Of a stretch of DNA of 64,000 bases, positions 42,119-52,819 are shown piece by piece. The number at the start of each line of letters is the position of its first letter. The stretch's first letter is position 1. The stretch lies in contig NZ_CP011479.1 in NCBI RefSeq assembly GCF_001011155.1, forward strand, positions 3,614,501 through 3,678,500, given 5' to 3'. This stretch comes from Hoeflea sp. IMCC20628 (lineage in GTDB: Bacteria; Pseudomonadota; Alphaproteobacteria; Rhizobiales; Rhizobiaceae). A program made the translations under genes and the position numbers. Under the pieces are notes generated by a model, which ran no database searches, had not been told where the DNA came from, and saw only the letters and a program-made list of their open reading frames with translations.

Positions 42119-43696
42119 TCATCGTGCAAGCCTTTGCTGTGGCGGCTGACCAGCCGCGTGCCGGGCATTTCTTGTCCTGTCGGAAACTTCGACGCTCTCA
42201 AACCCGGCGTGACGATGCTCGCGGTGCAGCCTGATCTGTTCGCCAAGTTCAGTGATGACAAGTTGCAGGTCAGACCCGGTCTCGGCAATGTCGGCGATGC
42301 GCGCGCCACCGGACGCGATCAAACCGGCTGCCTGTTTGAGCGATGTCGCCGAACCGCAAAGATGGTCAGCATCGTCCTGCGCATGAGCGCCGACGCCGGC
42401 GACAGATTGAGAAGCCTTGCCAACCTGGGAAACGAAGCCTGAAATGGCTGTTCGGGTCTGATCGACCAGGTCGACGCCGCGACCGATATGATTCTTCGCG
42501 TCAGAAACCAGTTCCTTGATTTCGGCGGCGGCGCCGGCGGATCTTTGAGCCAGCGCGCGAACCTCGGTAGCAACGACGGCAAAGCCGCGGCCAGCATCGC
42601 CCGCGCGCGCAGCCTCTATACCGGCATTGAGCGCCAGCAAATTGGTCTGAAAGGCGATTTCATCGATTACCGAAATGATCTTGCCGATCTGTTCAGCCGA
42701 TTGCTTGACACTGGCCATTGCACCGATGGCGTTTTCAACAACCCGGTCACCGTCTTCCGCACTTTTGCGGACATCGGCAATCAGCGTCTCGGCCGTCCGG
42801 GCGGTTTGCGCGGTCATGCGCATTCGGTCAGCCACGGTGGCCAGATTTTCATGTTCGCCGCCGAGGGTCACGCCATGGCTTTCGATCTGTGCGCGAACCG
42901 TCTCGATGTCATCGCTGAGGCGCAGAGCAAGCTGTTGGGCGTCCGAAAGCCGCGCGGCAGAACTTGAGACCAACTCATCAAGACGGCTGACTGCACCATT
43001 GAAATGGTCCGCCATGTCACGATGCTGCTCGATGCTGCCGGGGTCGACGCGCACCGACAGATCGCCCTCTGCCAATCGAGCCAGGGCCGCGCCGAAGCTG
43101 GATTGAACCTGCTCGCGTTCCTGCGCAATCATGTCCTGGTGTTGCTTGTCCAGCGTTCTGGCCTGGCTCCTGAGCCGATGGGACACCTGCATGTCGATGT
43201 CTATGAGCGCCGCCTTGACGATGTCGGCCAGGCGATCTGCAAGCAAGTCACGCTTGGCCTTGCCGGAAAATTTCTTGAAAAAGCCTGTGCTGCTCTCGTC
43301 GACGAGCCGGCGAATGATCCGGTCGAGCACCAATGCATGACCGCCGATCGACCAACCGGCATCCAAGCCGATGCGCTGACGCACATCGCCGAGAATGACC
43401 GAGCGATCCACATAGAGACTGTCAAAGCGACCATCGGACAGGATCGACCAATGGGCGACTTCGAGTTCTTCAAGCCGGTCGATCTGACGGGCCGAACTAA
43501 ACAGGGAGGCAATTTCGGGAGTGTTTTGCAGACGTTCGAAGAATCCGGACAGAGCAGTTCTGGCTTCTGCCTCGACCATGGGTCGCATCGTGCGCAGGCG
43601 TTCACGGCTATCGGTGTCCAGGGCGGTGAGGTCAAGCCGCGCGTGCAGGCCGTCAGTTGCCGCTGCATCCCTCACCCTTGCTTGAACTTGACCCAC
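42119..43696 (-). CDS. icpA: Soluble globin-coupled-type chemoreceptor IcpA
   Basis: 525 residues, GTG start with GGGGTGA upstream. No membrane helix. The N-terminal 170 residues follow the protoglobin pattern ([20 protein letters not shown], then [14 protein letters not shown]), but the residue aligned with the proximal heme His is Arg106. Then a HAMP-like stretch (about 205-245) and the MCP signalling tip ([40 protein letters not shown]). First gene of the che operon, as in rhizobia. Confidence 0.9.
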
Positions 43697-44101
43697 GCGA
43701 TCACCCCGACTGACGGCCCAGAGCCGTGTGTTGCAGTTAAGCCTGACTTTGGCCGCGACTTGCCGGTATGGCGCTTGGCATGCCGTTCATGTCTTTGGTG
43801 AAGGGCACGGTCAGCCTCTTGATACCGTGGTGCCATCTGGCCAATGAGAATTGGTTATCCGGCTCGAGCCCGGGACGACGGAACAGCTTCATGCCTTTGT
43901 GGGAGCCGATTACTGCATGCACGCACAACCCGACGAGTAGAACGATTTTTACGGGCTAATCCTTGATTGAAGGTTAATTTTTCGTATCACCTGTTAAGGA
44001 ATTCTGCTTTCTGTTCAGCACTTTCCGCCGCAAGCTTCACGCAAGTTGCGTATGCCACTTCTCGCTTCGTCGATGACAATGATGTCACCAGGAAACGAGC
44101 A
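43697..44101. other. Upstream region of the che operon
   Basis: About 400 nt in which I recognise no gene. The part directly upstream of icpA is likely to hold the promoter of the chemotaxis operon on the minus strand. A/T-rich sequence lies at about 43950-44010. Confidence 0.35.
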
Positions 44102-44212
44102 ATGATTGTTCTAGGACTAGGCGCGGTCGCGATCGCAACCGCCACTCTCGCAAGCTTCTCTCTGCTGTTGCGCTCAGGCGAAACCCGGCTTCGTCAGAAT
44201 CCGGTGTTTTAA
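44102..44212 (+). CDS. Possible 36-residue single-pass membrane peptide
   Basis: ATG at 44102 is preceded by AGGAAACGAGCA, a good ribosome site. The peptide is MIVLGLGAVAIATATLASFS followed by LLLRSGETRLRQNPVF: one membrane helix with a short basic tail. The frame is also open upstream to 43967. No family recognised; it could be chance. Confidence 0.3.
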   Translation: MIVLGLGAVAIATATLASFSLLLRSGETRLRQNPVF

Positions 44213-44254
44213 ACCCACCAAATATCGGTTGTCGGAAGTGGATCCGAGGCGCTA

Positions 44255-44350
44255 CAGCGCCGCACTCCCAATCGAATACGCAATGGTCGCGTAATACCTT
44301 GATCTGATTGATGTGATTTGTCGTTCAAATGAATCCATTTGAACCCGATA
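44255..44350. repeat. Palindromic element, copy 2
   Basis: Palindrome GTTCAAATG, AATC, CATTTGAAC at 44323-44344, the reverse-oriented partner of 31652-31675. Reverse-complemented, the flank also has GGTATTAC, ATTCGAT and GCGGCG blocks in the same order as copy 1, so the shared unit is about 90-100 bp. A further GGCGCT-AC-AGCGCC palindrome is at about 44248-44262. Confidence 0.55.
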
Positions 44351-44384
44351 CGTATCCGCATGATCATAACCTTCAGACGTGGTC

Positions 44385-45023
44385 TCACGCGGGCACAAAC
44401 AATCCAAACCTGTAGTTCGGGATATTTGCGCTCGTCTCCAACTCGGAAAACAGCGGGCTTTCGCGGAACTCGGCCACAATATTGTTGAGCGCGATGACTG
44501 CGCACTCCTTTTTAATCTCGCGCGCCAGCCGGTAGACATAGTCCTTGGCGTAACTGCCGAGAAAAGGATTGTTGAGGAACACATGGCTGGCTGTGGCGAG
44601 GTCTGTCACCTCTGCGCCCTGATGCCTGACATGCAAATTGCGCATTCCGAGCTGGCCCGACACACGCTCAATATGATCTGCCCGTTTGCGAACGGCCTCG
44701 ACAGCGATGAATGCAGCCGGGAAAATCGCAGCGCCATAAAGCACAATGGCCCCGTAACCAGCGCCGATATCCAGGAAAATATCATCCTCGGCGAGGGAGA
44801 TCGCATGGAATATTTCCCGCGCCTCCAAAAGACTTGTTCCTTCATATGTATAATTTGAAACTCCAAAATTTTTATGCAGCAAATAAAGCTCCGAAATATC
44901 TATTTCATCCGCATCCGGAATCTCAAATATTCTTGAAATCTCCGAAGCAATGCCATGCTTGTCACTACCATTGTGAAACTCACACAATATGGAAACATCT
45001 CTTTTTTCTTGCAAATCAAGCAT
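44385..45023 (-). CDS. Class I SAM-dependent methyltransferase (accessory, likely RiPP-associated)
   Basis: 212 residues. Motif I DIFLDIGAGYGAIVLYGAAI binds S-adenosylmethionine; motif II AFIAVEAVRKRADHIERVSG; then HVFLNNPFLGSYAKDYVYRL in the place of motif IV, with NPF. The N-terminal 65 residues are extra and rich in Asp, Glu and Ile. The 5' half is clearly more AT-rich than the surrounding genes, suggesting transfer. It has no clear ribosome site. It is divergent from the DUF1843-like peptide gene, 77 nt away, so a shared promoter region links it with the radical SAM locus. Substrate unknown: peptide, protein or small molecule. Confidence 0.75.
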   Translation of the reverse strand: MLDLQEKRDVSILCEFHNGSDKHGIASEISRIFEIPDADEIDISELYLLHKNFGVSNYTYEGTSLLEAREIFHAISLAEDDIFLDIGAGYGAIVLYGAAIFPAAFIAVEAVRKRADHIERVSGQLGMRNLHVRHQGAEVTDLATASHVFLNNPFLGSYAKDYVYRLAREIKKECAVIALNNIVAEFRESPLFSELETSANIPNYRFGLFVPA

Positions 45024-45100
45024 ATTTGAATTACTGTTTCTATAGTCCTAAATAGACTAACTGCGCCAACATGAAGCTAACATTTATTTGGGATACTGTC
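45024..45100. promoter_or_regulatory. AT-rich divergent promoter region of the peptide/radical SAM locus
   Basis: 77 nt between the methyltransferase and the peptide gene, with ATTTGAATTACTG and AACATTTATTTGG stretches. It probably contains promoters in both directions; boxes cannot be assigned. AT content is high relative to both neighbouring operons. Confidence 0.4.
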
Positions 45101-45280
45101 ATGATTATAGTCGCATACGGAACAGCCATTGGGCAAGCTCTTGAAAATCCGAAAACATCACTTGATGAACTCAAGGTGTTGCGCGATCATGCCGTTGCCA
45201 TCCTTGAGGCACAGGGTGATTTGCAGGGTGCTTTGAAAAAGCTGGAAAGTGAAATTTCCAACCGAGAACGCCGGAAATAA
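45101..45280 (+). CDS. DUF1843-like small peptide, candidate RiPP precursor
   Basis: 59 residues from the ATG at 45101 (MIIVAYGTAIGQALENPKTS); an ATG 30 nt earlier lacks a ribosome site. The pattern xxxYGxAIxxAL, then LDELKVLRDHAVAILEAQGD, then LQGALKKLESEI matches my memory of the DUF1843 family (YGVAI near the start, GDLxxALxxLxxEI near the end). It has no signal peptide and no Cys. It lies 49 nt before a radical SAM/SPASM gene on the same strand, the usual geometry of precursor and maturase. Modified residues cannot be predicted; it could instead be a small regulatory partner. Confidence 0.7.
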   Translation: MIIVAYGTAIGQALENPKTSLDELKVLRDHAVAILEAQGDLQGALKKLESEISNRERRK

Positions 45281-45329
45281 CGATCCTCCATACCGCCTTC
45301 ACCCGTCGGAATGAAAGGCCGGACCCTTG

Positions 45330-46751
45330 ATGGACGCGCCCCTCAGGTATCGCACGCAGGATGACACGGGCTCGACAACCCCAGTTCACGTCGTTTGGGA
45401 AATCACCTTGGCCTGCAATCTGTCTTGCGGCCACTGTGGTTCCCGGGCCGGATCCCGACGGCCCAACGAACTGACGACGCTCGAGTGCTTTGATATCATC
45501 CATCAATTGCGCGACGCGGGAACACGGGAGATCACCCTGATCGGCGGCGAAGCCTATTTGCGGAAGGATTGGCTTGAAATCGCTGCCGAAATCACCAGAT
45601 CCGGAATCCTCTGCGGCATGCAAACCGGTGCTCGCGGTTTGACCAGACCTCGAGTACAGGCCGCCTATGACGCCGGCATCAGGGCCATTGGTGTATCCAT
45701 CGATGGCCCGAAAGACATGCATGACCGTTTGCGAGGCTTTGACGGAAGCTATGACCAGGCGATGCAAGCCATCGGATACATCGCCGAAACCGGAATACGG
45801 CCCGGCGTCAACACCCAGATCAACGTGCTGTCGGCACCCTATTTATGGGAGATTTACGGCGAAATCCTCAAAGCAGGCGCCAAATCCTGGCAAACCCAGT
45901 TAACGGTGGCGATGGGCAATGCCGTCGACAGCGCCCATATTCTGCTGCAACCATACCAAATCATCGACGTGATCGACGACCTCTACAGCATCTACGAGGA
46001 CGGGTTGCTCAACGATTTCCGCCTGCTGCCGGGAAACAGCATCGGCTATTTCGGAAAATACGAGGCCCATTGGCGATCCATCACTCGGACTGCGGAAGCA
46101 TGGCAGGGATGCACGGCAGGAACGACCACCCTCGGGCTCGAGGCCGATGGAACCATCAAAGGATGCCCGTCGCTCTCCAAAGACAGCTACTCTGGAGGCG
46201 TCTCGCGCGAAGTCAGCCTTGCGGAGGCGATTTCCAACCTGTCTGGCCGCACCGTCAAGCGCGATGGAAACCCAGGCCGGGGGTTCTGCAAGACCTGCTA
46301 TTATTACGAATTCTGCCAGGGTGGCTGCACCTGGGTCACGCATTCGCTGACCGGCGAGCGGGGCGACAACCCCTACTGCTACTACCGGGCCAGCAAATTG
46401 CGGAAAGCGGGGCTGCGCGAGAGTATCGTCAAAACCGCCGAAGCGGCGCAAACTCCCTTCGCTATCGGCAAATTCGCGATCTTGATCGAAACCCTGGAAG
46501 GCAAGCCCGATTCGGTAACAATCGAAGACGATGCCCCGAAGCCGGATCATTCCACGCATCTTGTCATCTGCGAAAATTGCGAAGAATTCATCGGCAACAA
46601 TGAGCCTGTCTGCGTTCACTGCAACACCGAAGTCAGATCCGCCGCTCAAACGCGGTTGGCTCACACCCAGGAAATCAACAATCTGGTGGCCGAAATTGAA
46701 ATGCATTCACGGCAGATCCAAAGCGTCATCGATACCATCGGTGACCGGTAG
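45330..46751 (+). CDS. Radical SAM/SPASM enzyme, candidate peptide maturase
   Basis: 473 residues from the ATG at 45330. The radical SAM cluster motif is C29-x3-C33-x2-C36 (LACNLSCGHCGSR), followed by EITLIGGEAYLR (GGE motif) and SIDGPKDMHDRLRG. A SPASM-type domain follows: GCTAGTTTLGLEADGTIKGC, then GFCKTCYYYEFCQGGCTW and NPYCYY, able to hold two auxiliary Fe-S clusters. After it a tail of about 100 residues has a zinc-ribbon pattern CENC-x10-CVHC and a short helix. Such enzymes install C-C or C-S links or epimerise residues in peptides. The preceding 59-residue peptide is the natural substrate candidate. Confidence 0.88.
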   Translation: MDAPLRYRTQDDTGSTTPVHVVWEITLACNLSCGHCGSRAGSRRPNELTTLECFDIIHQLRDAGTREITLIGGEAYLRKDWLEIAAEITRSGILCGMQTGARGLTRPRVQAAYDAGIRAIGVSIDGPKDMHDRLRGFDGSYDQAMQAIGYIAETGIRPGVNTQINVLSAPYLWEIYGEILKAGAKSWQTQLTVAMGNAVDSAHILLQPYQIIDVIDDLYSIYEDGLLNDFRLLPGNSIGYFGKYEAHWRSITRTAEAWQGCTAGTTTLGLEADGTIKGCPSLSKDSYSGGVSREVSLAEAISNLSGRTVKRDGNPGRGFCKTCYYYEFCQGGCTWVTHSLTGERGDNPYCYYRASKLRKAGLRESIVKTAEAAQTPFAIGKFAILIETLEGKPDSVTIEDDAPKPDHSTHLVICENCEEFIGNNEPVCVHCNTEVRSAAQTRLAHTQEINNLVAEIEMHSRQIQSVIDTIGDR

Positions 46752-46780
46752 GCTCTCGTGCAACCGGAAACCGGGCAGGC

Positions 46781-47857
46781 TCAGGCGCCTGATACCAATG
46801 TGATGTGGTTGTCCCAGGCGCGGTCATAGGTGCGGTCTGCAAAGCGGCCGGTCTCGCTGGAACTGACAAACCCGTCCGCCCGGGCCTGTATGCCGCACAC
46901 GCCGCGACCCGGTTCGACATCAATCGGATTGCCCGATTGGGTATCCAGCGTGATCGTCACACCGCTCTTGGGCGAGGTGAAGGCCAGGGTTCGGCCATCC
47001 GTGCCGATGGCGACGGAGCCGACATATTTGCCAAGCCTGACGCCGACATCATCGGGCAGTTCCACCGCGTCGATGCCGGTATCCGTCCGCAGTCTTGCAA
47101 GGACCGGAACGTCCTCGGTAATGTCGCCTTCATACTGCCCGCCAATCCAGACCTGTTGGCGCGCGTCTACCGCCATATGGCGCAGGGACAGGCGGTGCAG
47201 GGCGGGCGGCAATTCGTGCTTTGACAGCAATGCCCCGTCTTCGGAAGACACGAACGCAATCGACGGCTTCATGGTCGCAAGATTGAGCTTTTCGCGACCA
47301 AAATCCGGATGGGTCTTGATGCCGCCATTGGCGACACACAGGGTTTTTGCATCGGGCATCATCAGGACCTCGTGCGGACCGACGCCAAAAGAGGCAAATT
47401 CGCCAAGTCGGGCAAAACCGTTGGTGGCGTCATAGACGCCGATGATGCCATCGCCTGTGTCAAAGGCGTTTTCGGCGGCATAGAGCAAGCGACCATCGCC
47501 GGAAAACGCGCCATGGCCGTAAAAATGCCGGTCTGCGGGGGTGTGAAACAGCACAGGCTCGGACCGACCATCCTTGCTGAATCCGATGGCAAAGTTTCCG
47601 GGACGGCGGGCAAAGGCGACGAGCCAGTTCGAATTGCCGGCATTGGCGAAGCCGTGGCCCCTGCCCGGAAGTGGATTTTCCGAGACCAGTCCGCCATCCT
47701 TGTCGAGAATGGCAACACCATAGCCGCCCGCATCCTTGTATGCTGCCGCATAGAACAGATCGGAACTGGCGAGCCGCGCCGCCGAAGCCGGCGTCAGGGC
47801 GGCAGCCCAGGCAAGACCGGCACCGATCAAAAATGACCGCCGTTCGATGAGCAACAT
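46781..47857 (-). CDS. Periplasmic DUF1513 beta-propeller-type protein
   Basis: 358 residues with a twin-arginine-like signal (RRSFLIGAGLAWAAALTPAS). Repeating strands such as GYGVAILDKDG, GHGFANAGNSNWLVAFARRP and VGPHEVLMMPDAKTLCVANG suggest a seven-bladed propeller; these fit DUF1513, commonly last in imelysin operons. It starts 2 nt after the imelysin stop. Role in iron use is inferred from context only. Confidence 0.8.
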   Translation of the reverse strand: MLLIERRSFLIGAGLAWAAALTPASAARLASSDLFYAAAYKDAGGYGVAILDKDGGLVSENPLPGRGHGFANAGNSNWLVAFARRPGNFAIGFSKDGRSEPVLFHTPADRHFYGHGAFSGDGRLLYAAENAFDTGDGIIGVYDATNGFARLGEFASFGVGPHEVLMMPDAKTLCVANGGIKTHPDFGREKLNLATMKPSIAFVSSEDGALLSKHELPPALHRLSLRHMAVDARQQVWIGGQYEGDITEDVPVLARLRTDTGIDAVELPDDVGVRLGKYVGSVAIGTDGRTLAFTSPKSGVTITLDTQSGNPIDVEPGRGVCGIQARADGFVSSSETGRFADRTYDRAWDNHITLVSGA

Positions 47858-47859
47858 GG

Positions 47860-48972
47860 TCAGTCCCCGTCGCCAAAGGAGAAGCCGGCGCTCAATCCTG
47901 CTGCGGCGGAGACTTCACCGTCGAGCCGCTGAATAACACTTCGAATGGCAACCTGCAGATATTCGAGGCGCTTACGGGTGACATCATCGGCCAGTAGGGC
48001 TTCGACGCCAGCATCAAAACTGTTGGCAGTCTTGATTGTCTGCTCGATCTCGAACCGAACTTCGCTGGCAAGCTTGGTGGCGTCATAGGTCAGTGCGCGT
48101 TCAATGCCGCTTTCGTTGAACAGACGCTCGATTGACGCCAGATTTGCGGCGATAGAAGCCATGGTGAGCCCGGCGCGCCGGTAGATCGCGGTCTTTGGCA
48201 ATCCGTTCTTTTTCGCTGTTCCGAGAAAGTTTCCGATGCGCACATCGCGAACGTGTTCAAGACCATGGATCATGGTGCCGAGCAATTGCGACAGAGCCTC
48301 GTGAGAATCGCGCAGAACCGGGTTGTCCGGCCCGGGGTTCATCCAGATCGATGCGATGCCCTTGTCATCAGCCCAAGCGGCGTCGAGTTCGGCGCCGATG
48401 TTCTGAAGGTTTTGCGCAGCCAGGTCGATGTAGCGGCAGCGCGATTGCCCCTTTTGTGCGTCGGTGAGCACAGCAGAGCCATCGCCATTCAAAGCGAATT
48501 CGAGTCCGCCCAGACCCTGGATGGCGACGCTCTTGCCCTGCAAGTCCTCAAGCGTCCACCCAAGCGCCTCATCGCCGGCCAGAACCGCTTGCACCTGGCG
48601 CAATCCCGTGCCCTTGCGGTCGGGATAAAACAGCACCCGCTCAAAGCGGTTGTCAGCACTGACCGGTCCAAACCGGACAATCTCGATTGCCGACCAGGAC
48701 AGGACCGTGTCGGCAAAGGCGTTGCGTGCCGCGTCGAGCGATTCGGAGCCGGGAGACTTGCAAAGCTGTTGCGCCACCTCAACCAGCCTGTCGCTCGAGG
48801 CATGGAACGCGGCATAACCGGGACGGACGAAGGAGTTGACGGTACCAGCCATGATCTCCCGCGTCTGTGACAACGGTAGATCACTCTGCGCGGCGGCTGA
48901 CCCCACCATCAGCGGCGCCACGCAGATAGCTGTAGCCATCGCACATCTGCTCAGAAAGAATTTCGGTGTCAT
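47860..48972 (-). CDS. Imelysin-family periplasmic protein (second copy)
   Basis: 370 residues from the ATG at 48972, where a signal peptide begins (MTPKFFLSRCAMATAICVAP, cleavage near AAAQ). An imelysin-type helical protein: RFGPVSADNRFERVLFYPDR, LGGLEFALNGDGSA, SHEALSQLLGTMIHGLEHVR. The GxHxxE motif seen in the first imelysin is replaced around LGGLEFAL, where the His is absent. Likely an iron-handling periplasmic protein; downstream of the di-heme gene. Confidence 0.82.
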   Translation of the reverse strand: MTPKFFLSRCAMATAICVAPLMVGSAAAQSDLPLSQTREIMAGTVNSFVRPGYAAFHASSDRLVEVAQQLCKSPGSESLDAARNAFADTVLSWSAIEIVRFGPVSADNRFERVLFYPDRKGTGLRQVQAVLAGDEALGWTLEDLQGKSVAIQGLGGLEFALNGDGSAVLTDAQKGQSRCRYIDLAAQNLQNIGAELDAAWADDKGIASIWMNPGPDNPVLRDSHEALSQLLGTMIHGLEHVRDVRIGNFLGTAKKNGLPKTAIYRRAGLTMASIAANLASIERLFNESGIERALTYDATKLASEVRFEIEQTIKTANSFDAGVEALLADDVTRKRLEYLQVAIRSVIQRLDGEVSAAAGLSAGFSFGDGD

Positions 48973-49018
48973 CGGGTATCCATTCTCACCGGCGTCAGCG
49001 GCTGGAGTTTCGGGTTGG

Positions 49019-50623
49019 TCACAACGAGTTGAGAAATGCGACGAGCGCATCCCGGTCCGCCTGCTCAAGTCCGGCAAAACCATCCCGCGCATTCTGCGCC
49101 TCGCCACCGTGCCAGAGGATGGCTTCGGTCAGATTGCGGGCGCGTCCGTCATGCAGGAAAAAGGTATGGTCGTTGACGATCTCGGTCAAACCGGTGCCCC
49201 AGAGCGGCGGGGTGCGCCATTCAGTGCCATCAGCGATGCCCACCTGCTGACCATCCGCCAGTCCTTCACCCATATCGTGCAGCAGGAAATCGGAATAGGG
49301 CCAGATCAACTGGAACCTATGCGCCGGATTGGCCGCCTTGCGCGATGTTACGTATTTCGGCACATGGCAGCTGGTGCAGCCGAGCGAATAGAACACCTGC
49401 TTGCCGGCCAGCACCTGAGCATCATCGACGCCACGACGCGCCGGCACAGCCAGATTCTGCGAATAGAAGGTCACCAGCTCCAGCACCGGGTCCGGCGCCT
49501 CACTGTCACCGAGATCGAGCTGGATGCCCACCGGCAACTCCATGCATTCGGTCTGCGACGGCATGCAATCGCCATGGCCTGCGGGCACATCGGGGGTGGA
49601 AATGCCGATGTCTCCGGCAAACGCGGTGGAAGACTGCTGGCGCACGGTGGCATTCTGCGCCTTCCAGCCGAAGCGCCCGATGGCGATATCGCCGGTGGCA
49701 GGATCCCTTGCCAGGGCAACGCGGCCTGAGACGCCATCGCCGTCGCGATCATCCGGATCAGCATGGACCAGAATATCGGCGGGATGAATGGCCTCGATCA
49801 GTCCCATGCCGGTCATCGGCGGGGTCATCCGCGCCGACAGGGTGGTTTCCGGATCGAGCGGGCCATAGCCCAGATCGGCAACGCTGTAGGACGGCTTGCG
49901 CAGCGAAACGACCGTACCGTCGTCCAGGCTGACCAGCTGTTCTTCATAGTCAATGACCATGCGGCCTTCGGACTTCAGTCCGGGAACCGCCAGGTCCTGC
50001 ATCTGCCCGCCATAGACAGGGTCGGGCAGCGACGCGGCCAGATAGCTCTCCAGCGCATGGCGCTCTTCATCGGTTCTGGCTGGCCGGGCAAGCCTCAGGA
50101 ACATCGAGGTGGCGTCTGCCGCCCCTTCGGGAGGATGGCCACGGCCGTCCTTGATGTGGCAGCTTTGGCAGGCGCGCGCATTGAACAATGGCCCCAAACC
50201 GTCAGACGCCAGCGTCGAGGAAGGCGAGGATACCCAGAGCTTGCGAAACAGCGCATTGCCGAGCTTGAAGGTCTCTTCTTCCTTGAAGGTCAGATTGGCG
50301 TTGAAATGCGACAGCGAATCCCGGTTGACCATTTTGGTCGAGGTACCGGCACCGCCCTGTTTGGCCTCGAATTTTTCTGCAGCTTCAAACGTGGTCGTCG
50401 GCTCGACAACCCGCTCCACCCTCTTGCGGTCCTTGCCGGAGAGATCATCACGGGTGTGCGGCAGCCCGGCAAGATCATCGGCCATCGTCGAGCCCACCAG
50501 GCTCATGACCAGACCAAGGGCCAGAATGCCACAGACCGCAGGCGGCAGCTTTTGCGCCGCAGGCGCGCCAATTTGCTGTGCCGGAATCACGCTCAATTCC
50601 GGCACCTGTCTGTCAACGGTCAT
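49019..50623 (-). CDS. Di-heme oxidoreductase-like periplasmic cytochrome
   Basis: 534 residues from the ATG at 50623 (MTVDRQVPELSVIPAQQIGA), with GAAGAGA upstream; a hydrophobic export segment follows (VCGILALGLVMSLVGSTMA). Two c-type heme sites: CQSCH (ARACQSCHIKDGRGHPP) and CTSCH (SLGCTSCHVPKYV). Matches the putative thiol/di-heme oxidoreductase family adjacent to imelysins, which resembles MauG/cytochrome c peroxidases. The start of the next imelysin lies 46 nt after it. It may oxidise iron or pass electrons in uptake (inference). Confidence 0.85.
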   Translation of the reverse strand: MTVDRQVPELSVIPAQQIGAPAAQKLPPAVCGILALGLVMSLVGSTMADDLAGLPHTRDDLSGKDRKRVERVVEPTTTFEAAEKFEAKQGGAGTSTKMVNRDSLSHFNANLTFKEEETFKLGNALFRKLWVSSPSSTLASDGLGPLFNARACQSCHIKDGRGHPPEGAADATSMFLRLARPARTDEERHALESYLAASLPDPVYGGQMQDLAVPGLKSEGRMVIDYEEQLVSLDDGTVVSLRKPSYSVADLGYGPLDPETTLSARMTPPMTGMGLIEAIHPADILVHADPDDRDGDGVSGRVALARDPATGDIAIGRFGWKAQNATVRQQSSTAFAGDIGISTPDVPAGHGDCMPSQTECMELPVGIQLDLGDSEAPDPVLELVTFYSQNLAVPARRGVDDAQVLAGKQVFYSLGCTSCHVPKYVTSRKAANPAHRFQLIWPYSDFLLHDMGEGLADGQQVGIADGTEWRTPPLWGTGLTEIVNDHTFFLHDGRARNLTEAILWHGGEAQNARDGFAGLEQADRDALVAFLNSL

Positions 50624-50639
50624 TTCAGTCTCTTCGGGT

Positions 50640-51122
50640 TCAGGTCGCGTCGGCCGATGCGGCGTTGAGCTGACCATATTTCTGCTCCCCGAGATCGCCG
50701 AGAAGCTTGAGTTGTGTTTCGAGGAAGTCGATGTGACCTTCCTCCTCGGCAATTAGGGCCTCAAACAGGTTCTTGCTGACATAGTCGCCTTCCTTCTCGC
50801 AGACATCGCGCGATTTGGTGTAGGCGGTCCAGGCATCCTGCTCGCCAGCCAGATCACTCTCGAGCACTTCCTTGATATTCTGGCCAATTCTAAGCGGCGC
50901 GACGTTCTGCAGATTGGGAAAGCCATCGAGGAATATGATCCGCTCGATAATCTTGTCGGCATGCTGCATCTCCTCGATGCTCTCGGCGCGCTCCTTGGCA
51001 GCAAGCTTGGTATAGCCCCAATCGTCAAGAAGCCGGTAGTGAAGCCAGTACTGGTTGACGGCACCCAACTCCATGAATAGCGCTTCGTTGAGGCAATCGA
51101 TGACTTTCTGACTTCGTTTCAT
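50640..51122 (-). CDS. bfr: Bacterioferritin
   Basis: 160 residues from the ATG at 51122, the normal length. Ferroxidase residues are in [20 protein letters not shown] and [20 protein letters not shown], with the heme ligand Met52, then [20 protein letters not shown] and [12 protein letters not shown]. It stores iron as a 24-mer with heme at subunit pairs. Paired with bfd directly upstream. Confidence 0.95.
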
Positions 51123-51169
51123 GATCGTGCAGCTTCCTGATGGTGAAAATGACAGTCCATTTTGCACGA

Positions 51170-51484
51170 CTAGGCCGCAACTTGCGACCTCCTTTTTCCA
51201 GCATTCTTTCTTGCCGTCTCAACACGCCGGCGTTGGTCGGCGATACGCTTGAGCAAATCGACCACGCGCGGCGCCGGGCTTTCCATCACAGCGTGATAGC
51301 GCTCGGTGGTTTCGACGATGATGTCGATGACGCCCGGAAAGCAGCCGCAACACTTGCCGCGGGCGCTGACCGCCTGAAACACCTTTCCCGGTGTAATCAA
51401 TTGCCATTCATCGACATTGAGGAAATCAGTGACGACTTCCTCAATGTCTTTCCGGGAAACGATGTTGCAACTGCAAACGATCAT
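51170..51484 (-). CDS. bfd: Bacterioferritin-associated ferredoxin Bfd
   Basis: 104 residues. 2Fe-2S ligands C4 and C6 ([10 protein letters not shown]) and C45/C48 in [17 protein letters not shown]. It delivers electrons to bacterioferritin to release stored iron. At 104 residues it is longer than the enteric form (64), with a basic C-terminal tail ([20 protein letters not shown]) that is unusual. It precedes bfr by 47 nt. Confidence 0.9.
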
Positions 51485-51512
51485 GGCCTTTGTCTTTCCA
51501 AAACGCCGGGGA

Positions 51513-52787
51513 CTACTGGAAGACTGCGTCCGGGCTGTCGAGGCTGTCGGACCCTTCCAGCTCGATGGTTCCCAGATCCAGTGCGGTGATGGCGCGCTCG
51601 ATCGAGCGGGTCTGCTTGATCAGGCCGTCAATCGCCGCCTGAACCGTGGCGTTACCTTCGTCATTGCCGGTGGCAATCATCTGATCATAGGCCTCGACAT
51701 TTTCTGCACGGTCGACCATGGCTTCCATCGCCGCGACGGTGGTGTCGAGATCAGCCGACAATTCGCCGGCAATGGCCGGATCCTTTGCCTCGACCAGATC
51801 GGCAAGCGACGGGCCGGCCAGTTCCGAACCATCGGGCCGGGTGTAAGTACCGGTGTAGGCGGTCTGGATGCCGACGGCATCATAGCGGTGTGAATTGTGG
51901 GTGTTGTCGGAAAAACAGTCATGTTCTTCTTCCGGATCACCCAGCAGCAGGCCGAGCTTCATGCGTTCACCGGCCAGTTCGCCATAAGACAGCGATCCCA
52001 TGCCGGTAAGAATGGTCGAAAGCCCGCCGGCAGCGCCTTTTTCTTCAAGCGCTGTCCGTGCTGCCCCGCCGGCTTTCCAGTTGGCGGCCATCTCCTCGAG
52101 ATCAGCAACCAGCAGGTCACTGGCTGAGCCGAGGTAATCACGACGGCGATCGCAATGGCCGTTGGTGCAGTACTCAAGGCTGTAGTCGGTCGCAGGACGG
52201 TTGCCCGCGCCCGGACCGTTGCCGTTGAGGTCCTGACCCCAGAGCAGGAATTCGATGGCGTGGTAGCCGGACGCGACATTGGCTTCGATGCCGCCCGCTT
52301 CCTGCAAGGTTTCCGAAATCAATTCCGGGGTGATCTTGCTGGCGTCAACCGTCTTGCCGTTGATCTTGATGGAAGGATTGGCGATGACATTGGCTGAATA
52401 GAGCGAGTTCTGATCGCTTTCCGCGCCGTAGCTTTCGTCGACATAATCGATCAGGCCCTCGTCAAGCGGCCAGGCGTTGACCCGTCCTTCCCAGTCATCG
52501 ACGATGGCGTTGCCGAAACGGTAAACCTCTGTCTGCTGATAGGGAACCCGCGATGCCAGCCAGGCTTCCTTGGCTGCTTCAAGCGTTATATCATCGGGAT
52601 TGGCCAGAAAAGCTTCGATGGCCGCATCCAGATCCTTTGCGGTCATCAGCGCATCATCGAATTTCGCCTCGGCGATATCGGCATAATGCGCGACCACAGC
52701 CTCAGGCGTCACATCGGCCACCGCAGCCGTCGTCAAGGCCGTGGAAGCCAAAAGGCCAATTCCGAGCAGATGTGCGAAATTCTTCAT
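51513..52787 (-). CDS. Imelysin-family iron-regulated protein
   Basis: 424 residues from the ATG at 52787, with AGGAG upstream (a TTG start 9 nt earlier is possible). Signal peptide MKNFAHLLGIGLLASTALTT with cleavage near AVAD. Imelysin motifs: SGYHAIEFLLWGQDLNG (GxHxxE), VYRFGNAIVDDWEGRVNAWP and TGMGSLSYGELAGERMKLGL. Related to cyanobacterial IrpA and EfeO, and expected in the periplasm with a role in iron uptake. Confidence 0.9.
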   Translation of the reverse strand: MKNFAHLLGIGLLASTALTTAAVADVTPEAVVAHYADIAEAKFDDALMTAKDLDAAIEAFLANPDDITLEAAKEAWLASRVPYQQTEVYRFGNAIVDDWEGRVNAWPLDEGLIDYVDESYGAESDQNSLYSANVIANPSIKINGKTVDASKITPELISETLQEAGGIEANVASGYHAIEFLLWGQDLNGNGPGAGNRPATDYSLEYCTNGHCDRRRDYLGSASDLLVADLEEMAANWKAGGAARTALEEKGAAGGLSTILTGMGSLSYGELAGERMKLGLLLGDPEEEHDCFSDNTHNSHRYDAVGIQTAYTGTYTRPDGSELAGPSLADLVEAKDPAIAGELSADLDTTVAAMEAMVDRAENVEAYDQMIATGNDEGNATVQAAIDGLIKQTRSIERAITALDLGTIELEGSDSLDSPDAVFQ

Positions 52788-52819
52788 GGGTAACAATACT
52801 CCTGAGATTACAATTTCAT

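Follow-up and report, generated by a model that had tools for sequence, protein, structure and literature searches.

In the marine bacterium Hoeflea sp. IMCC20628, three neighbouring genes encode a 59-residue DUF1843 protein, a radical SAM/SPASM enzyme and a DOT1-like methyltransferase. At one site of the genus they are either all found or all missing, and they probably form a self-contained protein-modification cassette. They lie in the window, that is, the whole stretch of 64,000 nucleotides that was analysed. Judging from sequence comparisons, the cassette as a whole probably serves the excision of tyramine from Tyr6 of the DUF1843 protein and the methylation of this protein, which would give an intracellular ketoamide product. 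What we infer in the following sections is the splicing reaction, the role of a zinc ribbon in the enzyme, the target that is methylated and the biological function.

The DUF1843 protein and its radical SAM/SPASM enzyme

The gene of the probable substrate (45101..45280, forward strand) encodes 59 residues and matches PF08898 (DUF1843) in a Pfam scan with 27.5 bits, over the gathering cut-off of 23.3. The original prediction had described a DUF1843-like peptide free of Cys, with YGTAI close to the start and GDLQGALKKLESEI close to the end, and all these features were found in the translation. The Met at 45101 is a likelier start than 45071, since three relatives (L019, L123 and L020) keep M-[IV]-[IV]-V-A-Y-G; the start at 45071 was dropped, given that the relatives begin at M-[IV]-[IV]-V. 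Just 5' of this Met the relatives carry GGAGGA, compared with only GGGA in the window. The comparison with two congeners shows that the peptide is under purifying selection: over 59 codons, 33 synonymous and 10 non-synonymous differences separate it from L019, and 30 and 8 from L123, with dN values of 0.14 and 0.09, respectively, and a dS that was not computable. As this selection is accompanied by the conservation of both genes in relatives, the pair of peptide and enzyme is not due to chance. The AlphaFold model is a three-helix bundle (helices 6-15, 21-38 and 41-58) in which residues 1-5 are coil and Tyr6 opens helix 1. The best model has a mean pLDDT of 87.1 and a pTM of 0.57, and the mean pLDDT of the remaining four ranges from 75.8 to 80.3.

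The gene encoding the enzyme (45330..46751, forward strand, 473 residues) starts with its ATG 49 nt after the stop codon of the peptide gene, as had been claimed. The predicted CxxxCxxC motif was also recovered, as C29xxxC33xxC36 (45414..45437). These radical SAM [4Fe-4S] cysteines are invariant in 40 sequences, and so are the SPASM cysteines C261, C279, C320, C323, C329, C333 and C350 (46110..46379), present in 40/40 rows of alignment A5.

The distribution of both genes was examined in several samples of genomes. In one genus (centre G130), PF08898 exceeded its cut-off in 13 of 159 genomes and TIGR03913, an NCBIfam family of such enzymes, was found in the identical 13, at neighbouring positions; two more PF08898 matches in this genus were below the cut-off and inside 742-codon frames. 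Among 398 genomes of the phylum, TIGR03913 was detected in three at E 1e-90 and PF08898 in six at E 0.001 (four over the cut-off), three of which are the genomes with the enzyme. The other three matches, one of them over the cut-off, sit inside frames of 750-774 codons and align to profile positions 13/14-50 only, a part that lacks the Tyr. The weak PF08898 matches within frames of 742-774 codons (G120, G129, G152, G1197 and G1252), which lack the Tyr part, probably represent another protein family. In the class, PF08898 was present in 4/385 genomes, the window's included, and the short loci of the other three also contain part of a related radical SAM enzyme. The enzyme was matched in 3/297 genomes within the family and 4/18 within the genus, one of the latter being a diverged relative with 49% identity.

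Furthermore, 87 radical SAM loci were gathered, 80 from genome contigs plus the window and six others. A DUF1843 ORF lies no more than 690 nt from the enzyme in 86 of them, the exception being L095, a contig of 4,095 bases; this set carries less weight than the samples of genomes because it was mostly fetched by an alignment that already contained DUF1843-associated enzymes. DUF1843 and radical SAM genes are therefore associated, side by side, and the lack of association that would have refuted the original prediction was not observed. Both the shared 13 genomes and the adjacency in the loci give good support to the proposal of the peptide as substrate. With high confidence, the DUF1843 protein pairs with the enzyme as its substrate.

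The two best NCBIfam families of the enzyme are TIGR03913 (451.8 bits) and TIGR04103 (410.7 bits), followed by a family at 144.6 bits. Both scores are under the curated cut-offs (591.75 and 725 bits, respectively), which counts against a splicing function. At E 1e-30, each of the 40 sequences in alignment A5 is matched by the two families. The identity with a Nostoc TIGR04103 enzyme (L017) is 46%, equal to that with a TIGR03913 member (L002). In a tree of 50 enzymes, the Nif11-type rows cluster together as ten, and the remainder consists of the DUF1843-associated enzymes and a few others; the window enzyme belongs to an alphaproteobacterial group of seven (support 99/97). The deep split of this tree is weakly supported (92/83, 94/59) and several end branches are long. 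On a Tropicibacter plasmid, a long-branched relative with 47% identity lies within a stretch (L016, 3779-13240) that also encodes a phosphotransferase and two peptidases and has three radical SAM genes.

The methyltransferase and the cassette site

The third member of the cassette, which the original prediction did not include, is a divergent gene on the reverse strand (44385..45023) encoding a class I methyltransferase of 212 residues. PF08123 (DOT1) matches it with 32.2 bits, above the gathering cut-off of 23, and matches 13/14 members of alignment A7 at E 0.01. Among solved structures, the methyltransferase profile has best matches that include DOT1 and a protein-lysine methyltransferase (9ne1 and 5jwj), alongside many other methyltransferases. 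Between this gene and the peptide gene lies an intergenic region (45024..45100), and a promoter and terminator scan that included it gave nothing better than shuffles.

The cassette interval (43697..46780) extends from a chemotaxis gene (42119-43696) to a DUF1513 gene (46781-47857). DUF1513 was found in 16 other genomes of the genus and the site could be read in 12: two contain all three genes, eight contain none and have an interval of about 0.6-0.8 kb, one is cut by the end of the contig, and in one the stretch gave no chemotaxis gene match. The methyltransferase was found in 2/2 filled and 0/8 empty congeners. Regarding the flanks themselves, the chemotaxis gene encodes a protoglobin-coupled receptor and stands beside apparent CheA, CheY and STAS genes, identified by eye. 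The other flank (46781-52796) encodes DUF1513, imelysin, a di-haem oxidoreductase and a second imelysin, a cluster resembling those of iron uptake.

It is rather unlikely that the methyltransferase gene has nothing to do with the other two and travels with them by chance. In favour of chance, a homologue was found near DUF1843 and the enzyme in only 14/87 loci (from Alphaproteobacteria, Bacteroidota and Cyanobacteriota; the flanks scanned were shortened in 17 of the 87), with variable orientation. None of these is among the 41 loci with a DUF1843 ORF longer than 165 codons (DUF1842-size), the 14 being found in the 46 loci without such an ORF. Against chance, the gene is missing from the eight genomes with an empty site, and the three genes also adjoin pyrG in Bradyrhizobium, a different site from that in the window's genus. 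Moreover, among 72,556 plasmid records searched at E 1e-4, the only match of the methyltransferase belongs to the Aureibacter DUF1843/radical SAM operon, where it is directly downstream of the enzyme; a two-sequence comparison gave 29% identity (E 7e-18) with this homologue. The distances between enzymes and between methyltransferases are also congruent over the 14 loci (Spearman 0.78), and 0/5000 permutations reached a value as high. Hence, the methyltransferase is very likely part of the cassette unit, and its presence in only 14/87 loci indicates that it is dispensable to the chemistry of the enzyme.

Regarding its function, the presence of DOT1 and a protein-lysine methyltransferase among its solved relatives makes N-methylation of the DUF1843 protein the leading guess. 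A specific action on Lys has about one chance in three. The 14 methyltransferase-bearing loci encode 25 peptides, and no Lys column is shared by all of these, the best one reaching 17/25. The distance from the Tyr to the nearest upstream Met is 1-7 residues in these loci and 1-93 in loci without the methyltransferase and without DUF1842-size proteins; the N-terminal target that this could hint at was not relied on, as the comparison is confounded by kinship.

Two other loci present additional genes. On the Aureibacter plasmid (L014, 4649-6025), a RimK-type ATP-grasp ligase is encoded just 5' of three DUF1843 genes, the enzyme and the methyltransferase. In L099 (2-7733; viral contig IMGVR_UViG_2882289281_000009), an operon with DUF1842/DUF1843 and a splicease-like enzyme looks like prophage cargo, since a phage integrase flanks it on one side and a phage tail-collar protein together with a D12 DNA methylase on the other.

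Predicted chemistry at the invariant tyrosine

The original prediction had proposed an alignment of DUF1843 peptides in search of conserved core residues. Among 213 unique DUF1843 domains, the sole invariant column is a Tyr (212/212 aligned, one gap), although Tyr-less domains may be under-counted because all seven seed sequences of the domain HMM contain it. In the window this residue is Tyr6, and Ala5-Tyr6-Gly7 (45113..45121, forward strand) is the predicted splice site, of the type X-Tyr-Gly that occurs in the Nif11 precursors of TIGR04103 loci. The several paralogous DUF1843 copies of an operon have the Tyr motif in common. The GDL present in the window peptide is conserved to a lower degree (G 99/191, D 94/197, L 115/197), and so is the family's other GDL (G 176/212, D 159/212, L 158/212). 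Neither is invariant among the unique domains, and GDL was dropped as the modified motif.

TIGR04103, presumably the same family as IPR026482, provides the link to splicing. PlpX works together with PlpY, and the pair was more active in TB medium according to PMC9484694. All nine TIGR04103 loci over the cut-off (L017 and L108-L115) encode a Nif11-like precursor with xYG in its C-terminal part and a small PlpY-like ORF (10 records, one duplicate), two traits of the PlpX/PlpY spliceases. PlpX belongs to IPR026482 according to PMC11002830, and this source, PMC10533398 and PMC10373908 (section 10) describe that it removes tyramine from Xaa-Tyr-Gly and leaves an alpha-ketoamide. By analogy, we take the TIGR04103 maturases to be PlpX-type spliceases. 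Considering this kinship of the enzyme with TIGR03913 and TIGR04103, the X-Tyr-Gly precursors of TIGR04103 loci and the invariant Tyr of DUF1843, a loss of C8H9NO (135 Da; calculated 135.068 Da) would be expected from a peptide whose calculated monoisotopic mass is 6498.54 when untagged and unmodified, and the enzyme quite likely performs tyramine excision on the DUF1843 protein. An assay for a mass loss of 2 Da, as originally suggested, would not fit this expectation.

A further resemblance was found in the words surrounding the Tyr. When 198 DUF1843 stretches were compared with 12 Nif11 cores, the ten-letter word TIRPLYGVVI was common to a DUF1843 sequence from Acidobacteriota (L037) and a cyanobacterial Nif11 core (L113), and the longest shared word in shuffles was seven letters (500 full shuffles and 500 with the Tyr and the next residue fixed). 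The shorter IRPLYG is part of PlpA2-derived tags listed in Table 1 of PMC10533398; according to the same table, however, these PIRPLYGLPI-type (LYG) tags were unmodified at the tested FtsZ sites, which speaks against splicing. A second splicease-like enzyme is encoded in the same Bradyrhizobium genome as L020 (L104, 871-2634), with an upstream ORF that contains PIRPLYGVII.

The residues around the Tyr also weigh against splicing in part. The residue that follows is Gly in 113 of the 212 unique domains, Ala in 96, Met in 2 and Asp in 1, so that 99/212 sites deviate from the published XYG motif. The preceding residue is Leu in 127, Pro in 72, Met in 9, Ala in 3 and Val in 1; the Pro of 72/212 sites is unfavourable, and Ala at X, the case of the window, is found in 3/212 only. 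The Tyr could be invariant for folding or for another Tyr-centred reaction. In this last sense, the enzyme might act on the invariant Tyr by mycofactocin-like decarboxylation and C-C bonding, by an aryl crosslink or by cleavage without rejoining, as could be suggested by the non-Gly residues and by a mycofactocin maturase model that matches 37/40 relatives at E <1e-30 (1.7e-28 for the window enzyme). We consider this improbable, since such families score at most 145 bits for the window enzyme against 452 and 411, DUF1843 has splice-site words in common with Nif11 cores, and there is no second invariant DUF1843 residue that could be a crosslink partner.

A C-C or C-O crosslink or an epimerisation elsewhere in the peptide, for instance in the GDL region, had been proposed as the likeliest chemistry. 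SPASM enzymes include crosslinkers and epimerases, and the GDL-like positions are moderately conserved, but neither GDL is invariant and the kinship of the enzyme is with TIGR04103; this proposal was abandoned as the lead reading in favour of splicing and is now very unlikely. Least likely of all is that DUF1843 assists the enzyme in a structural or regulatory role, with the true substrate encoded elsewhere: it is modelled as a folded helical mini-protein and is often fused to DUF1842, and repeats led the authors of PMC10994174 to suggest self-assembly, but the invariant Tyr lies at the fold edge, several paralogous copies per operon keep the Tyr motif, and the same authors report that no self-assembly of their own DUF1842-DUF1843 protein was seen.

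The enzyme has another feature that had gone unnoticed, a zinc-ribbon-like CxxC...CxxC (C414, C417, C428 and C431; 46569..46622), nearly invariant in alignment A5. In the enzyme model (mean pLDDT 85.5, pTM 0.85), the C-terminal end consists of a zinc-ribbon domain and a 38-residue helix (residues 435-472; 46632..46745). The motif is present in 84/112 radical SAM rows. Nine of the 28 rows without it are Nif11-type loci, seven are cut at the locus end (L005-L008, L011, L012 and L125), five have it as a separate small ORF (L003, L100, L104, L118 and L124) and seven have it neither fused nor separate (L016, L018, L098, L116, L117, L119 and L120). L098, one of these seven, contains the peptide, the enzyme and the methyltransferase, which weighs against the reading presented here. 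In L124 (1051-3086; G1189, of the window's genus), a diverged relative is accompanied by two DUF1843-like peptides (with LLYGVI and PPYGVI), both under the Pfam cut-off; here the zinc ribbon is a separate ORF, and the window's cassette site is empty in G1189.

A PlpY-like HMM was built from the small ORFs downstream of Nif11-type enzymes, named by their position and size. It matched 10 records (9 distinct), all of them Nif11-type loci of its build or their kin, and gave no match at E 0.01 in the window or in the DUF1843 loci, a result that concerns this HMM and not the PlpY sequence itself. The splicing reading is weakened by this, since PlpX acts with PlpY and the window has no PlpY-like partner. 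The fused zinc ribbon may stand in for PlpY in substrate binding.

Under the splicing reading, the enzyme would bind the folded DUF1843 protein directly, without a leader peptide, probably helped by the fused zinc ribbon and the long C-terminal helix. It would then excise the tyramine part of Tyr6 and rejoin the backbone, so that Ala5-Tyr6-Gly7 would become an Ala-derived alpha-keto-beta-amino acid followed by Gly, directly before helix 1. The methyltransferase would put a further mark, most likely N-methylation, on the same protein. The scan detected no Nif11 or NHLP leader on the DUF1843 protein, and no exporter or protease of the RiPP kind among the nine neighbouring proteins scanned with Pfam; an intracellular ketoamide protein is for this reason likelier than a secreted peptide. 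This small product would probably not leave the cell and would carry its reactive ketoamide close to the N-terminus. It could reversibly inhibit a Ser or Cys protease, given that, according to PMC10373908 (section 10), beta-residues confer protease inhibition. More tentatively, and with somewhat less than even confidence, the cassette could represent a leaderless two-step editing in which a folded mini-protein is read via a zinc ribbon instead of an RRE, receives the ketoamide and is then modified by a dedicated methyltransferase, the product being intracellular and not exported.

Comparison with known systems

TIGR03913, DUF1843 and the splicease chemistry are already known. Scott et al. 2022, as cited in PMC10533398, counts 27 other characterised and 939 predicted splicease systems, and may already include DUF1843 members, since its title, as given in reference lists, speaks of peptides and proteins. 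PMC12114271 mentions such an operon with a different guess. Apart from Scott et al. (2022) and the work of Haft and Basu (2011), the literature searched contained no statement assigning splicing to DUF1843, and the same searches returned no leaderless variant that combines a methyltransferase with a zinc ribbon fused to the enzyme. This form, as read from the genes, appears to be what is new here, and the cassette would represent an uncommon version, free of a leader, of a protein-splicing chemistry that was discovered only recently. If this is true, DUF1843 gains a function as a backbone-splicing substrate and the invariance of its Tyr is explained, tyramine excision is extended to a leaderless folded mini-protein, and a two-enzyme cassette of splicing and methylation can be named. 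For labelling, a splicease that works without PlpY could offer a simpler tool than PlpXY does.

Among the closest known systems is that of the TIGR03913 GDL peptide-associated maturase, the best NCBIfam match of the window enzyme, with which it shares the adjacent DUF1843 peptide, the SPASM domain and the C-terminal zinc ribbon. Unlike this system, the window enzyme is 140 bits under the equivalog cut-off, and the window has a single stand-alone peptide, no DUF1842 protein and a divergent methyltransferase. Its peptide also carries a two-residue insertion found in 11/213 unique domains, all from one alphaproteobacterial group.

The PlpX/PlpY spliceotides (TIGR04103, nif11-class peptide radical SAM maturase 3) are similar in the sequence of their enzymes, with the radical SAM CxxxCxxC and the full set of SPASM cysteines, as well as in the X-Tyr-Gly site and the splice-site words. 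They differ in having a Nif11/NHLP leader and a PlpY partner, both absent from the window, where the substrate is modelled as a folded mini-protein with its site near the N-terminus and the zinc ribbon is fused to the enzyme.

In Q63NT7, a DUF1842-DUF1843 protein, a flexible linker leads into DUF1843, which is likewise predicted to be a small bundle of helices, according to PMC10994174; there it is the C-terminal part of a protein of 212 residues, whereas that of the window stands alone with five residues before the Tyr. Finally, the DOT1-like and archaeal protein-lysine methyltransferases are among the best solved relatives of the window methyltransferase, which differs from them in being tied to an operon with DUF1843 and a putative splicease.
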